Shown one piece after another: positions 3,762 through 47,900 of a stretch of DNA of 64,000 nt. How positions within the stretch are numbered: the first letter of the stretch is position 1; the number at the start of each line of letters is the position of its first letter. The position numbers and the translations under genes were made by a program. The stretch comes from Thelephora terrestris (taxonomy: Eukaryota > Basidiomycota > Agaricomycetes > Thelephorales > Thelephoraceae). The notes below the pieces were generated by a model. That model was not told the origin of the DNA. It did not search any database and worked only from the letters and a program-made list of their open reading frames with translations. Location of the stretch: contig WIUZ02000005.1 in NCBI GenBank assembly GCA_015956445.1, positions 682,001 to 746,000 on the forward strand. The letters are read 5' to 3'.

Positions 3762-4672
3762 CTAACACCGATCATTTTCCCGGGGAGATTGGTCTTGAAC
3801 ACTCTCGATGATCCTTGTGGGTTCCAGTGAGTTGTCCAGCAAGAATTTGCCATCTGTTTTCCGTACAAAGCCTCGGCGTCTGTGGCCATATCTTCCGGAG
3901 GGGAATGAACTCACTGGGCATATCGTTCTCCCTTGCCCTCCACTGTGCTTCCTGTGGCTTTCATGAGCGATGCACACGGATCGCTCTTTGAAAAGAAAAA
4001 AGACCTCTATGGATCCAGCGACGCCGCTGGCAACATGCCTGTCGATGATCCTCTCTGTCGCTTTCTCAAAATCGACAGCGGTAAGCCACCTCTCGTCTAA
4101 CATCTCCCCTGCCTCCTTCCACGCCCCGATTGAAAGGAAGCAGTACAATCCTTCGATTACTACGATTCTGTGCCATGGGTATACCTCGACCCCTGTTGGG
4201 TCTGGATCTTTCACTGCATGGTCAAACGAGGGTGCGATGATCGGCTCGACCACCGGGCCTGATGGGGAGAGAGGAACGCGAAGGTGCCTCACAAATTCAA
4301 GGTAGCTATCTGGGTCGAACGTCCAATGCGCACCTCGTCTGTCTTTTGCAAGTTGGGGATGGGGTAGGGAAGCAAGCTGTGCCCGAGTGAGATGCCATCC
4401 ATCTAATCCAATAACGATCGCCTCTGTTCGCTCTGCTGACGCGGATTCGATCTCGGTTTTGAGGATGACGTTGATGTGGTCGACTATGAGTTTGGCGAGG
4501 GTCGTCTTTCCTGAAGCTGGGATGCCCGCTATGCCGACTATGAGACGTGACTGATGAGGCACACTGGCTTAGATTAGATATCAAACTCGAACCGTCAATT
4601 GAGACCATTTTACCCTTACTCTCTGACCCTTTCCACAAGGTAGCGAGCCAGCTCCTTTGCTTTTGCATCCAT
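3762..4672 (-). CDS. YFH7: YFH7-like P-loop kinase
   Basis: Protein of 252 aa in the uridine kinase/phosphoribulokinase-like P-loop family that includes yeast Yfh7. Exons on the minus strand: 4672-4620, 4563-4005, 3951-3915, 3871-3762. Visible motifs are Walker A GIPASGKTTLAK, a LDGWHL segment matching the substrate-site region, RRGAHWTFD, VIEGLYCFL, and a C-terminal EAQWRARENDMP followed by EPTRIIESV, all typical of this fungal group. Exon 3 is only 37 nt. The substrate of the family is not firmly established; nicotinamide riboside or nucleoside-type substrates are only possible by kinship. It is divergent from the GH99-like gene across 367 bases. Confidence 0.85.
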
Positions 4673-5039
4673 CTTTGGCCTTTCGCCTCAAGTTTGTTGC
4701 TTGAACCAACTACGCGGGCGGACTGAAGGCTGCTGAAGGGCTCGTGCGGCGGGGGATTTGAGCGGCTGAGCGCTGGTATTGATTTGAACTTCCATTTTTG
4801 GAAAACGGAGGCACCAGCAGAGCCGGTTTAAGAATAGGTTTGAATTCGATCATCCGAGGCCCCCCCCCACTCTTGGCAGAATATCTTCAGCTTTTCATTT
4901 CAATCGGTCGCTTTGCTTCTAACTACGCAGTATTCTTCGCCCTCGACATCGCTTATCGACGCTCGCAGACACTTGCCGCGATTTACTCGTATCTTTTTTC
5001 CTTCTTTGCAGCCTCGTCGTCGTCAACGCCATCGTCAGG
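4673..5039. promoter_or_regulatory. Divergent promoter, YFH7-like / GH99-like
   Basis: 367 bases separate two ATGs pointing away from each other, so both core promoters must lie here. A run of nine C (4860-4868) and a pyrimidine-rich stretch before 5040 are visible. There is no clear TATA box. Confidence 0.5.
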
Positions 5040-8000
5040 ATGTATGACGAAAGGGCTTTGAAGAAGGCTGATCCTTCTACTATCCAGGACAAGCTGCTGG
5101 TCGGCTACCAAGGTTGGTTCACCTGTGGCGGGGATGGAGAACCAGGTAAGCCTCCCGTTCCCTCTATACTTTCGCTTCTCTCACGTTCCTTCCGCCATAA
5201 CCTGCGCCCGCTTCGCTCACCGCTCCTGTTTTACGCGATTTGTTGCCTTTGCCCGCTTTCAAAATGATGTAATCCACGCCACATCGGATAGTTGGGAGAG
5301 GTCATCACGGATGGCTCCATTGGTTCAATTACCCCGTCCCGGACGGTGGACGTCCTAATACGGACATCTGGCCGGACGTGTCGGAATACGATCCCTCAGA
5401 ATTATACGAAGCGCCGGGGCTCAGAACGCAGAGTGGCGACAAATGTTATCTGTTCTCTTCGAGGAACAAGAGGACTGTGGATAGGTCAGAGCCTCATCGA
5501 ACCCATTCCCGAAGGGTCTGTCTGACGTTCGTGCCCGCGTATATGCTATTTGTAGGCACTTTAATTGGATGGCGCAGCACGGTGTAGATGGGGCGTTCCT
5601 CCAGCGGTTCGCTGGCCAATGCGATGGGCGAGGGGAAAATGATGGGATCCGGAAGATCCGTGATGAAGTTGGGGAACGTGTACGGGAAGCTGCAGAGAAG
5701 AACGGCAGGGTGTACGCTATTATGTGAGCCTCTTTCGTCCGTCTCTCTCTTTTCACCGATGTCGCGGACCGGTATGTTTATCCCCTTTGTAGGTACGACG
5801 TGTCTGGAGTTCCGCCCGACAAGATTGAAGAGATTATCAAATTCGACTGGAAGCACCTCGTATACAACAAACGGATTTTCGACAGCCCAAGTTATTTAAG
5901 GGAGAAGGGAAAGCCCGTCGTTGCGTTATGGGGTACTAACCATTTCTCACTCTCTCCCGTTTACCGCGTCTGGCGGCCAATTCTAATCCGGGTTTTTCTT
6001 TTCCAGGTTTTGGGTTCGAAGACTCGCGCCATACGCCCGGTCTTGTGCGTTCAATCGCTTCTTACCTAAACAGCTCCCACCCAGGCGGCGTATATTTGAT
6101 GGCCGGAGGTCAGTTGTTGTTGCACATGCACGCTATTCCTACATTTGCGAGAGAGTGTTGACAAAATGTGACCCGTTCTCATTGAGTTAGTTCCTGCGCA
6201 TTGGCGAACGTCCACGGGCGACGCGGACCGGGACCCTGACTTTGTCAACGTCTGGCTCGATTCCTTTGACGCCATCTCGCCTTGGACGATCGGAAGGTAT
6301 GGTAACGTTCGGGAGGCGGATAATTTCGCGGAGGAAAAGATCGCTGGAGACGTGCAATTGATCAACGAACATAACGGCAAGGCGCGACAGGGGAGGAAGT
6401 TGGATTATATCCCCGTTGTGTTCCCTGGAGGGTCTGGATATAACTTGTCTGAAGGAAAGTGGGACTTTAATGGTATCCCGAGGGAGGGTGGAAAGTTCTT
6501 GTGGAGGCAGGTTTACAATGCCAGGAGGCATGGCGTTAGGACGATTTACGGTGCCATGTGGGATGAGTGAGCTTCCTTCGCCGCTCGTGCGATTTCTTTT
6601 GGGAGTTGACGAGAGACAGGTACGACGAGGGGACCGCTTTCATGCCCGTCGTCACTCAGAAGAATCGATTACCTCTTCCCGTCCGTGACCGGTACAGGTT
6701 CCTTGCGCCGGATGCGGATACCTGTGATCTACCGTCTGACTGGTATTGTGGTTCCTTTTCAACCACCGCGCGTATATTCAACGCGATTTGCAGGTACATG
6801 AGAATCTGTGGTATAGTTATCGAAATTCTCCGCGGCGAGCGTACGCTCCTCGAGGCCTTTCCAGAACAAGAGCTGCACGACTACTGGCGTACCCGACCTC
6901 GCTATGCGGACGGGTCTAGTGGCGGGCGCGTACTCGCGAATAGCACGAAAAAAGCTGGCGGGTCCGAAGGCTTGGCGCAAATGTTGGCCGTAGGGGAGAA
7001 CCCTGATGAACCTCCCCCACCTCCGTACAGTTTGGAGGCTGACGATGTACCAGGGGAATCAGCTTCGACGCAGGATGGATTTGAGACCGCTCCGACCTCG
7101 CCCAACGATGAGCCAAATATTAATGTCTCGGACTTGGCGACAGATCTTGGTCGACATACTCTTGGTCCGCCGTCGCCTCAGTCTTCACATTCACCATTCC
7201 CTGGAGGGTTCGATTCGCGATCTACATCGCCTTCTTACCCAGGCACGTCGCAAATAGCGAAGCCTCCTTCGCCAGCTTTCGCGAACAGACCGAGCTCCGC
7301 ACCTCACCCCGCACCTCTAGAGCCGTCATACTTTCTTCCTACTGGATCCTCGACGGAGGTTGGTATGCCTTCGGTAGCCTTTCCGAACCCCAATAAGTAT
7401 TCTCAACAACATGTTGGTGGGTTCAACGTCGGTGCCCCTGCTGATCCGTGGATTCCGTCTCAACCCTCAGTAAGCGGGTATTTCCCAACTTTCCCACCCT
7501 CCCAGAGCATGTATCCTGGACCTTCGACGTCTGGACAGATGCCTTCGCCGACTCACTCTCCGTATCCAGGGCAGGGGTACCAGCAGCAATTTCCGTATCC
7601 CGGGCAGACGAGTTATGGACCTCCACCTCCTCAGGGTTATGGCCAGCACCAGTCTGCTTACCCTGGCATGACGGGCACTTCGATTTCTGGGCCACCAGGC
7701 CGTCCTCCGACCCGTCCTGGGTCGAATTCGCCTCCGTTACCTCAAGCTCACGGTCAGCATCAACTTCATTACCCTGGTATGACTAACGCACCGGCTCCAA
7801 CGCCGCCGCAACGTCCTCCGACTCGGCCTCCTGTGTCGCATTCGCCTTCGTTATCACAGGGTTATGGGCAGCAACAATCTTCTTACCCCGAGATGACAAA
7901 CGCACCAGCTCCTGCGCTACCGGACCGGCCCCCAACTCGCCCTGCGTCGAATTCTCCTCCGTTGCCCCAAAGTTATGGACAGCATCATTCTTCTTACCCT

Positions 8001-8899
8001 GGGATGACCAGCGCTCCGTCTCCAACATCACCAGAACGCCCTCCGACTCGTCCTCCTGCGTCGAATTCACCTCCTTTGCCTCAAGGCTATGGACAGCATC
8101 AGTCCACTTACCCTGGAATGACAAGTTCGCCACCACCTACGCCGGTTCTACCGCCAACGTCTCACGCTTCTAGGCCAAACGCACCGTATAACCAACAGCC
8201 ACTGTCACCTCAATCGCAACCTCCACCACTTCCTGGAAGGTATGATCATTCTCCAGGTTCGATGCCGTCTGCGTATGGTGGAATGAACCCTGGCGCTATG
8301 CCCCCGCGAAATGGGTCATACCAGCAGCCTGGTCCATACGGATACCAACCGCCTCCTCAGCAACATTCCCCGTACGGTGGATACCCTGAATACCAAGCTC
8401 CGCCGCTACCACCCCGTGAGTGTCACGTCTGCTCCGAAACTTCCATTTGGGTGTTGTATGAAACTAAAGAGAGTTATGACCCCCCTTCTTGGGAATCCCA
8501 CAATGACGCCTTAATATGCTGTTTGTGAACGTTGCGTTGTGCAGGCCCGCAGGACAGGCCACCTTCGAGCGGCGGACCGGGTTTCAATCAATCCCCTTAT
8601 CAGTCCCCCTATTCGCCGCCGCAGCAGCCACCACCACCACTACCACCCCAGAGTTACGGTGGTCCGACGACGAGCTTATCTCATTCGGCATCTTATCCTA
8701 ATGCCACCGGTCAGTGGAAGAAGCAGCAGACGGGCGTTCTGGGACTCGCGAAAGACACGGTGGATAAGATTACCGGGAAGGAAACGAGGAAGAACGTGCA
8801 GTCGTCTGTACATAGTGCGTGCCCCCCTTTTTTTCTGACATTCTCCTTTGTTTTTTTCTTTTTGGGCTAGGGCATCATTTAGTGCCCCTCGTTGGATGA
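5040..8899 (+). CDS. GH99/GH71-like glycosidase with proline-rich repeat tail
   Basis: Ten-exon gene of about 1042 aa. Exons: 5040-5145, 5292-5484, 5556-5723, 5793-5932, 6007-6108, 6191-6566, 6620-6742, 6794-8415, 8545-8814, 8871-8899. The first ~430 residues form a glycoside hydrolase domain of the GH71/99 type, often annotated 'xylosidase/arabinosidase' in mushrooms: LLVGYQGWFTC, GHHGWLHWFNYP, VDGAFLQRFAGQ, AIMYDVSG, YGAMWDEYDEGTAF and ELHDYWRTRPRY. There is no signal peptide, so a cytosolic enzyme is likely. After RPRY the frame continues without a break into ~550 residues rich in Pro, Ser, Gln, Tyr and Gly, with a PPPPPYSLE (PPxY) motif and five ~37-aa repeats. It ends with a charged LAKDTVDKITGKETRKN segment. 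Family members usually stop near RPRY as I recall, so the tail looks like an acquired extension. The substrate is unknown. Confidence 0.85.
7635..8190 (+). repeat. Coding tandem repeat, ~111-114 bp, five units
   Basis: Units begin at 7635, 7746, 7860, 7971 and 8085, spaced 111, 114, 111 and 114 bases. Each encodes a variant of xYGQHQSxYPGMT followed by a PP-RPPTRP-SNSPPLPQ-like half. The last unit decays after about 80 bases. The period is a multiple of three, so copy-number change keeps the frame. Confidence 0.9.
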
Positions 8900-15764: not shown

Positions 15765-18700
15765 TCATACATTAAACACTACATCCGACGCTTTGAACGC
15801 TGTGTTCCCTGGCCAGACCTTTATCGGCACCTCACACTCGACTGTCTCAACCTTCACGGCGGACCATTCCTCATCTGCTTCACGCTCATCCCCTTCGTCT
15901 AGCTCATCTTCTTCGAAATACCGCTCCGACCCAGTACCCGTAAATGGAGAAGCCAAATAACTCGTCCATGATCGCAGTCCGCTCGGTGAACTGACAGCGG
16001 TGGCGTCATTGATCTGTTCCAACGGTGCAATCGAAGGGGCGCCTCTCCAGGAAATTCCCCATTCCCCGCTTGGTCCGTCACGTACGAGTGTTTTCAGCTC
16101 TCTCCGGCTCTGGTCTGAAGCGACAGCTACCAATAAATATAATCTCACTTTCCACTCCAATCCCCCGGGCCCCACAGGTATCGGTGGTTCCAGGTACCCT
16201 GGCTCACCCTGTACTTCGATTTGGAACGCGGGACTCGCGTCTGGAGGAATATCCAGCGCAAACGTCGCCCTAAGCGTCGACGACACAAGGGAAGAATGAT
16301 GCTCAGCGTGTGTCCTACGTAGCGGTCGTGTATTCGAATGGCTTGCCAATGACACCGGGAGCGTCTCGTGACTCTCCAACTTCGCTGATAACTGCAACAG
16401 GCAATGGCGATCATAAGTCAAACCCCCAGATGGGATATACAGCATCAAACCTTCAAGACCCGTGATCGACCCACACGCTCGTTCACGTCAACGATACATA
16501 TTACCGTCTCGCCGAGCCGATAAGCTGATTTGGTAAAGGTCAGAACCGCGACTTTCACTCCATCCTTGTTCACGTCAAATGACACTATCGTCCGTCAGTC
16601 TCTCACCCAAAACAGATGTCACCACCCGGCTTACACTTTCTGGGATTCCGCGTTAAAATCTCCACGGCTTCTCTGCATCCCGTTAGACCCCCAGCTTCTC
16701 GTTCCCTCGCTGCGTCAACGTCGAGATCGTCCCTATCTGGGCTCGGTGATGTAGTCAACAGAAATCTAGCGTATTCTCGAACAGAGCTCATCGATCCTTC
16801 TATTTTCGAAGCTTGGATGAGGTAAGTGTGGTCCTGTGCTTCCGCGAATTTGTGTCTCACATGAGAGAGGTTTCGGTTGGAATGGATTCATCGGTGCGCG
16901 CGGACCCTCGACGATCGCCGGTTTTGCCATCTGGTGTATGGATCTAGCGCATTGAACAGGCCACAGCAGATCATACGGTGACGGTGGGTCCATCACTGAG
17001 CGGAAAAATCGCATCAGTCGCAAAGAAACGCACATGCGGTCGCTGCTAACCATTGACGTGGTTGTAAACACGCACGGGTATCTTCATAACGCGGCTGTGA
17101 TTGGCTGAACTGTTTCCCGGCGAGGCACCAGCCCGACAAACGCCAATGGCAAACTCATAGGAAAACCTAAAAGTCCGACCCTTGAATGTAGGAGGCAAGT
17201 TTTTCGGGAGAGACAGACTATATGTGTCTGGTAGTTTGTGTGAGGAAGGTACCATGAGCGATTCAAAAGGGCTTAACGTACAACTGCGAGATTCACCCGG
17301 GCTTAGACTAATATCTACGGCCAATAGTGTTGGTTGAACCTGGTACGTCGGCAAGGGAACTTCCGGATCGTAGAGTTCCTCCGAAGGGGTCCTCTGTAAT
17401 CCAAGTCCACCGTTAAAGCCCGTCGTCATCGATGACGTACTTAATGTAGGCGCTGAACGAGATGCTGGGAGTGAGAACGAAGACGACGGCCGGTGGGAAG
17501 GAGCCCATTGCTGTGATACAGAGGAAGTCATTGCCGGTGCGGCGCTTAGCGAACCCAGCAACGAAGTGGGAGCGGACAGGAGAGAGAAGAGTCCCGATGA
17601 AAAGGAGGATGTCCTCGTGTGAGACCGAGTGCGTGTAACCGGTGTCATTCTCCTCTTAGATGGGTCCATCATTGCAGCAATGTCCATACTGCCACCCCCG
17701 ATGATCGATCGTTTGAGTAAACTCGATCTCAAAGAGTTCAGCGCATTTTCTTGTAAGGGATCCGCCGTGCCAGCCACCGGGGTGATGGCCAAACTCCCAA
17801 TGAATTGGACGTAAGAGTACAGGATTATCTCCCTGTCGTTTTGTGGTGCATTGTTTGTCGCAGCAGAGGCCGTCTTCGGCACAGGGAAGAGTTGAGGATC
17901 TCGCACTGGAGGTGGCGGTCCGCGTCCAAGACCATCTGAGGTGCTGGACCGCAGTGGCACACGGCGAGGCAGATGGTCACCAGCCCGTAGATCTGCCTGG
18001 CGTTCTTGCAGGCCAAAACCAGGCACCGTGCCGCTAACCGGAGGTGCAGAAGTGGGCCACGGGGTAGGTGGACCCGACCCAGGAGAACTTTCGGATATAG
18101 GGTCGAGCGAAAGGGAGAAGGAGAGGTTGGAAGGGGTGGCGGGAACGGAGATGTCATGTGGGGGCGGCAATTGGCCATCAATCACTGACTGTTTGCGAGC
18201 ATGGGGGTGTTTTGAGGAAATAGGAAGCGATGCGGATCTTGCGAGGGGCGACGAGATGCGTGGGGATGTTGGAGCTGTAAGGATGAGTCTGCTGTCCGTA
18301 TCCAAAAATCAACAGAACAGAACGTACCAGTCGTAACGCCAAGTGCTCTTTGCACATGTACCGGGGTTTTGGACGACGACGACGATGATTCTGGTTGAGG
18401 AGAGACTTCGCCATCTCCCTTGAACGTTATATCCAACGAAAGCGACCTGTTCGGGTTTCTCGTCCTCCTCGAATTTGAGTCCGACCTCCCGATAAGGCCC
18501 TTCCGCTCAATAACACCGCTCTCACCCGGCTTCCTCGTAAGGATGACAGGTAACACCGTCCGAGGCGATCGAGGGGACGTGGGTGGCTGAGCTAGGGGAA
18601 CAGCGCTGATCGAATGTGCGCTCCTTTTGTGCGACCGGGTGATGGCTCGAGAGGAAGCCTCTTGGGCGGTGTTCGTGTTCGTGAATGATATTGTGATTGA

Positions 18701-44057: not shown

Positions 44058-47751
<3,694 letters not shown>

Positions 47752-47900
47752 TGTGGAAGGCGGGGGAATGGTGAAGGATTCTTGAGCTACAAGCGCGTCC
47801 AAAGAGGCGTGTTCCCGCTTAGTCATCGCGACTTGATTTCCCACGAGTACTACGACCGCCGACATGTGTTGTCACGGTGGAAAATAATTGCACGGTCGCC

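Follow-up and report, generated by a model that had tools for sequence, protein, structure and literature searches.

Gene structure

The locus studied here raises the question of whether a GH99-like glycosidase domain and the long proline-rich tail that follows it belong to one protein, and what such a tail would do for the enzyme. We analyzed the gene within a 64,000-nucleotide stretch of contig WIUZ02000005.1 (the window, to which all coordinates refer unless another sequence is named). On the + strand, a single frame of 1,042 aa runs through 10 exons from a start codon at 5040 to a stop at 8899 (Table 1), and its nine introns are all of the GT-AG type, with lengths of 51-146 bases. The original prediction had placed the end of the domain and the beginning of the tail in the same exon, and this continuity holds in the complete model: the motif TRPRY (aa 436-440, codons from 6891) is followed by a stop-free frame through the rest of exon 8, and a mechanical ORF (6567-8528) is open from end to end across the domain-tail junction. 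Domain and tail almost certainly form a single continuous gene. The tail composition is sharply unlike that of the enzyme and the alignment of the relatives stops near the junction, which would fit two genes with the enzyme stopping near 6900 and the tail standing apart; however, exon 8 runs from the domain end into the tail and has no in-frame stop between the two, and we consider two genes extremely unlikely. The tail is 602 aa long in the ten-exon model, not the approximately 550 aa first proposed. Confidence in the model is lowest at its 3' end, which comprises the last intron (8815-8870), exon 10, and the final 9-10 residues.

Three queries (the domain, the initial 504 tail residues, and the C-terminal exon) were run against the 40.6-Mb genome of 60 contigs, with scores computed for the best candidates only, and this gene was the sole match at E 0.001 or better. 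No paralogue of the tail or of the C-terminal segment was found in the genome at E 0.001, and a further hit at E 0.68 was regarded as a chance match.

Some further features of the locus and its surroundings are recorded here. The lengths of introns 3, 7, and 8 are multiples of three. Intron 7 (6743-6793, 51 bases) is in frame and stop-free, and its retention would insert 17 residues close to where the enzyme domain ends, while retention of intron 8 (8416-8544) would end the protein at 8528 with loss of the charged C-terminus. The genes of the window are intron-rich, which suggests a filamentous fungus. On the minus strand of the window, DEAH-type helicase pieces (Helicase_C and HA2) adjoin an S1-domain ORF at 44575-47865, an arrangement that we take to be reminiscent of Prp22, and an ORF with an Rgp1 domain lies at 17046-18305.

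Table 1. Positions in the window of the exons, domains, repeats, and motifs of the glycosidase-tail gene
Feature	Position	Strand	Remarks
Exons 1-7	5040-5145, 5292-5484, 5556-5723, 5793-5932, 6007-6108, 6191-6566, 6620-6742	+	GT-AG introns, continuous frame
GH99-like catalytic domain, part covering aa 1-402	5040..6742 (exons 1-7)	+	29-39% identity to seven bacterial relatives
Predicted catalytic pair E362 and E365 in WDEYDEGT	6565..6629	+	Invariant in 8/8 sequences; aligned to the EWHE pair of MANEA
Codons of the predicted pair	E362, 6565-6566 and 6620; E365, 6627-6629	+	E362 codon split by intron 6
Exon 8: aa 404-440 (domain end, 37 residues) and tail aa 441-943 (503 residues)	6794-8415	+	No in-frame stop
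PPPPPY with the only PPxY (aa 478-481)	7011..7028	+	Not enriched over shuffled tails
Tandem repeats of 37-38 aa, four full and a half-conserved fifth	7635..8198	+	
PxxPxR sites, in register in repeats 2-4	7797-7814, 7911-7928, 8022-8039	+	Class II SH3-ligand type
Further PxxPxR sites	PPLPGR, 8223-8240; PPLPPR, from 8400	+	Arg codon of PPLPPR split by intron 8 (8415 and 8545-8546)
Exons 9 and 10: remainder of tail and Lys-rich segment	8545-8814, 8871-8899	+	

N-terminus and location

No ATG occurs at 4561-5039, just 5' of the start codon, so a signal peptide on the protein is unlikely, and the predicted N-terminus of the 1,042-aa protein is polar. Other sources of a signal peptide were also considered. 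An upstream ATG with a signal peptide is ruled out for the ATG-free interval, an upstream exon beyond 4561 would overlap mechanical minus-strand ORFs, and the hydrophobic in-frame stretch immediately 5' of the ATG is without a start codon. The signal peptide reported as missing is thus also missing within reach of the gene. From the absence of a nearby start and the polar N-terminus, we infer that the enzyme would be intracellular.

Family and catalytic residues of the enzyme domain

The fungal domain alone has no match in Pfam up to E 1, PF16317 (GH99) included, and none in NCBIfam; in the PDB it retrieves three antibody chains at E 0.79-0.92, which are not meaningful matches. A profile built from the fungal domain and seven bacterial relatives (an 8-row alignment) matches human MANEA with a whole-chain E of 5.3e-9 and bacterial GH99 chains with E 2.2e-4 to 0.045. 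The MANEA match consists of two blocks with i-E 4.3e-4 and 0.1, and the whole-chain value depends on both of them; the dyad lies in the weaker block, and its stretch alone reaches just i-E 0.1. The Pfam GH99 model (PF16317) gives weak matches in five of the eight aligned members (best 1.6e-4), and its rows in two of the five relatives that were scanned whole score 19.5 and 15.6 bits, under the 33-bit cut-off. The profile match to MANEA, with the dyad in register, supports the original prediction of a GH99-like catalytic-type domain. The domain end proposed at TRPRY also agrees with the alignment, in which the relatives cease aligning near this motif and YWR or FWR is found close by in three of the seven.

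In the profile alignment, DEYDEGT of the fungal domain falls on NEWHEGT of MANEA. According to an excerpt of PMC11025385, the glutamates of NEWHEGT are E404 and E407, the catalytic pair of GH99 is EW[H/G]E, and H[I/L]EPY is a GH99 motif. The pair is present in the fungal domain as EYDE in register, with Tyr replacing Trp and both Glu invariant in all eight sequences. H[I/L]EPY is absent, and the aligned region reads IMYDVSG, in which M156 and D158 are invariant in the 8-row alignment. Because the fungal domain has no Pfam match and lacks HIEPY, it is called GH99-like and is not filed as GH99. In our judgement, E362 and E365 are likely to be a working catalytic pair. The replacement of HIEPY by a MYDVSG-type stretch would fit a catalytically dead scaffold head, but the invariance of D158 and both dyad glutamates in 8/8 sequences argues against it, and such a head is very unlikely. 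In comparison with GH99 endo-alpha-mannosidases/mannanases (human MANEA and the GH99 enzyme of Bacteroides xylanisolvens), the fungal protein shares the two-block profile similarity, ExxE in register, and the EGT after it, whereas it differs in the lack of HIEPY, in being missed by Pfam GH99, and in having no secretion signal in reach.

GH71, the family of fungal alpha-1,3-glucanases, is described as a related family with the motif DYGE (excerpt of PMC11025385), which is comparable to EYDE of the fungal domain. Membership in GH71 (PF03659) was rejected, as the fungal domain has no Pfam match to it. The GH71 model has 11 matches in the genome and none on contig 45, the contig of the gene; separate matches to this alpha-1,3-glucanase family lie on contigs 1, 2, and 60. 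The structure of a bacterial relative was also modeled from a two-row alignment. The model is poor (mean pLDDT 44.8), and Foldseek places GH99 5m3w first (E 1.7e-3, TM 0.32), with no match at 0.001 or better, which is only weakly consistent with GH99-likeness.

Bacterial relatives

Relatives of the fungal domain were found in Oscillospiraceae MAGs, Streptomyces, Persicobacter, and Eleftheria. Seven were aligned, with 29-39% identity over the domain, and 45 columns are invariant across all eight rows. Outside the alignment are L012 (no open frame with the marker motif), L013 and L014 (whose loci are those of L009 and L010), two of the three Persicobacter genes, and a partial match in Bacteroides finegoldii. 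The annotations among the relatives include 'xylosidase', 'discoidin domain-containing', 'T9SS ...', and 'glycoside hydrolase family 71/99-like'. In the class to which genome G001 belongs, 1 of 291 genomes has a match, a genome that had been identified previously, and a scan of a contig collection yielded two loci from 10 candidate stretches; both searches used patterns of the fungal sequence and may miss more distant relatives. Two scans of viral contigs gave no relative, and Pfam GH99 has weak matches in 10 of 245 bacterial genomes, none of them over the cut-off.

Whole-protein domain scans covered five of the seven aligned relatives (all except L009 and L011). Four of them carry a dockerin, a T9SS sorting tail, FN3 plus F5/8C domains, or a mannose-type lectin domain after the enzyme domain, and the fifth carries DUF7910. 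The fungal protein, in contrast, has a proline-rich and probably disordered tail at the position of these modules. Dockerins, sorting tails, and sugar-binding domains position an enzyme. As judged by eye, the N-termini of five of the seven aligned relatives resemble secretion signals. The exceptions are the Persicobacter protein, whose annotated start lies inside the domain, and L011, which has no visible secretion signal, so the fungal protein is not alone in lacking one.

Some relatives were also notable for their context. The Oscillospiraceae GH99-like proteins L009 and L010 end in dockerin-type repeats (Pfam Dockerin_1 in L010, by eye in L009) and are perhaps cellulosomal. On the Persicobacter plasmid pPP5 (L031, 3507-19173), three GH99-like genes occur with two GH92 genes, TonB-receptor/SusD genes, and a sulfatase gene, in a cluster that looks like a mannan utilisation locus. 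The Eleftheria relative has a GH26 neighbor gene, and the enzyme itself carries a D-mannose-lectin-type domain. Given the GH92 and GH26 neighbors and the mannose-type lectin domain, our best guess at the substrate of the fungal enzyme, with hints solely from the context of its relatives, would be an alpha-mannoside-type glycan.

Composition and repeats of the tail

Proline makes up 23% of the tail, and S, G, Q, and Y account for 14, 10, 8, and 5%, respectively; this composition suggests that the tail is probably disordered. A PDB search with the tail gave nothing at 0.01, and Pfam returns one row, in exon 9, whose 14.2 bits fall short of the 34.1 cut-off. Five tandem repeats had been proposed; four full copies are present, whereas the fifth is conserved over about its first half only (about the first 20 residues, 8085-8144 or so), with 38 residues assigned to it by hand. 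The repeats start at aa 684, 721, 759, 796, and 834, with spacings of 37/38/37/38, and Tandem Repeats Finder detects a 114-base unit in 3.8 copies at 7701-8124. The charged C-terminal segment that had been noticed is seen after the repeats as a Lys-rich, weakly amphipathic segment at approximately aa 1001-1025, and aa 1001-1018 has the highest hydrophobic moment (0.43, a modest value) among the Pro-free 18-residue stretches of the tail.

The repeats were compared in ten pairs, which are not mutually independent. Pooled over these pairs, pS is 0.62 and pN is 0.22, and third positions account for 199 of 358 differences. The six pairs within repeats 1-4 have pS of 0.39-0.53 and pN of 0.12-0.27, and pairs involving repeat 5 are near saturation (pS 0.80-0.88). 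Under a random-placement null, the number of amino-acid differences is below the mean in all ten pairs, with P<0.03 in nine and 0.056 in one. Because the protein is kept better than the DNA among the copies, the repeats are evidently translated and held at the protein level, and the tail would accordingly be a translated and constrained part of the protein.

Ligand motifs and possible partners

Six motif patterns were counted in the tail and compared with 2,000 composition shuffles, with P uncorrected. PxxPxR occurs five times against 0.95 expected (P 0.003), a value that overstates the case because the repeats copy motifs, which makes these sites non-independent, and because six patterns were tried; repeats 1 and 5 are without the motif. 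The excess of PxxP.[RK] is weaker than that with R alone (five against 1.47 expected, P 0.0165). PPTRP is seen four times against 0.01 expected, and both [RK]xxPxxP (1.48 expected) and [FYWL]PPPP (0.17 expected) are absent. The PPxY motif of the original prediction is present, once, and this count is at the chance level (1.65 expected, P 0.81), while no LPxY is found in the tail. Binding of WW domains by PPxY as the main function is not borne out as stated, and PxxPxR, a motif of the class II SH3 type, appears to be the better, though modest, ligand signal.

The genome contains two WW-WW-WW-HECT loci on the minus strand of contig 1 (at about 1227131-1228991 and 4182272-4184050), which by their predicted domains are two Rsp5/Nedd4-like ligase genes. 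It also contains 27 SH3 match rows, some of which are closely spaced and may be one gene. SH3 and WW domains encoded in the genome make binding of the tail possible. The SH3 rows on contigs 13 and 44 have identical scores and spacing, which suggests a duplicated stretch or an unmerged haplotype.

These ligases bear on the reading that the PPxY is a functional element, with the enzyme serving as a substrate or adaptor of Rsp5/Nedd4 and its turnover or sorting set by ubiquitin. The acidic setting of PPPPPY (DEPPPPPYSLEADD) and the two WW3-HECT loci point in this direction, but a single PPxY where 1.65 are expected and the absence of LPxY point in the other, and we consider this role improbable.

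Possible role of the tail

A tail that is rich in Pro, Ser, Gly, Gln, and Tyr and contains GYGQ/SYGQ repeats might also be a low-specificity disordered spacer or a condensate-prone segment that serves solubility or clustering and has no dedicated SH3 or WW partner. PPxY at the chance level would fit such a spacer, as would an SH3 motif excess that comes from few and non-independent sites. However, the constraint on the repeats at the protein level speaks against it, as do PPTRP at four against 0.01 expected and PxxPxR above the shuffles, with repeat copying explaining part of both. We regard the spacer as a somewhat unlikely explanation. Docking through SH3 domains is the most likely role of the tail by analogy, and it is favored because of the PxxPxR excess, the constrained repeats, and the modules for placing the enzyme that occur at the same position in the relatives. 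The fungal endocytic and actin machinery includes multivalent proline-rich SH3 ligands. The tail resembles them in having several PxxPxR sites in Pro-rich repeats, and it differs in being a putative ligand carried by a glycosidase.

Taken together, we propose that one gene encodes an intracellular GH99-related glycosidase, which would probably be endo-acting on an alpha-mannoside-type glycan via Glu362 and Glu365, and that its long disordered C-terminal tail would be a multivalent docking arm. The repeated PxxPxR sites would bind SH3-domain proteins, and the single PPPPPY may serve as a second ligand, for an Rsp5-type WW ligase. Docking would keep the enzyme in place on a membrane or the cytoskeleton, or ubiquitination would set how much of it is present. 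We infer the location, substrate, disorder, SH3 or WW binding, and tethering in this scheme, and the proposal as a whole, with docking mainly through SH3 and perhaps also WW domains, is a tentative one that we favor with slightly more doubt than confidence. A more speculative extension, which we think doubtful, is that a GH99-like enzyme became cytosolic in a fungal lineage, although most of the bacterial relatives examined here look secreted, and that its C-terminal module for secretion, anchoring, or sugar binding gave way to a multivalent SH3/WW docking tail. If this extension is true, glycan trimming would be physically coupled to the endocytic, cytoskeletal, or ubiquitin machinery.

A fusion of a glycosidase with such a tail is not described in the titles and abstract openings of the literature searched. 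Although GH99 is reported to be absent from fungi in an excerpt of PMC11025385, the genome studied here holds a cousin of GH99 with a GH99-type catalytic pair that is apparently intracellular. If the tail docks the enzyme, this would be an unusual instance of recruitment of a polysaccharide-degrading fold to an intracellular scaffold, and it would provide a handle on the role of such fungal GH99-like proteins.
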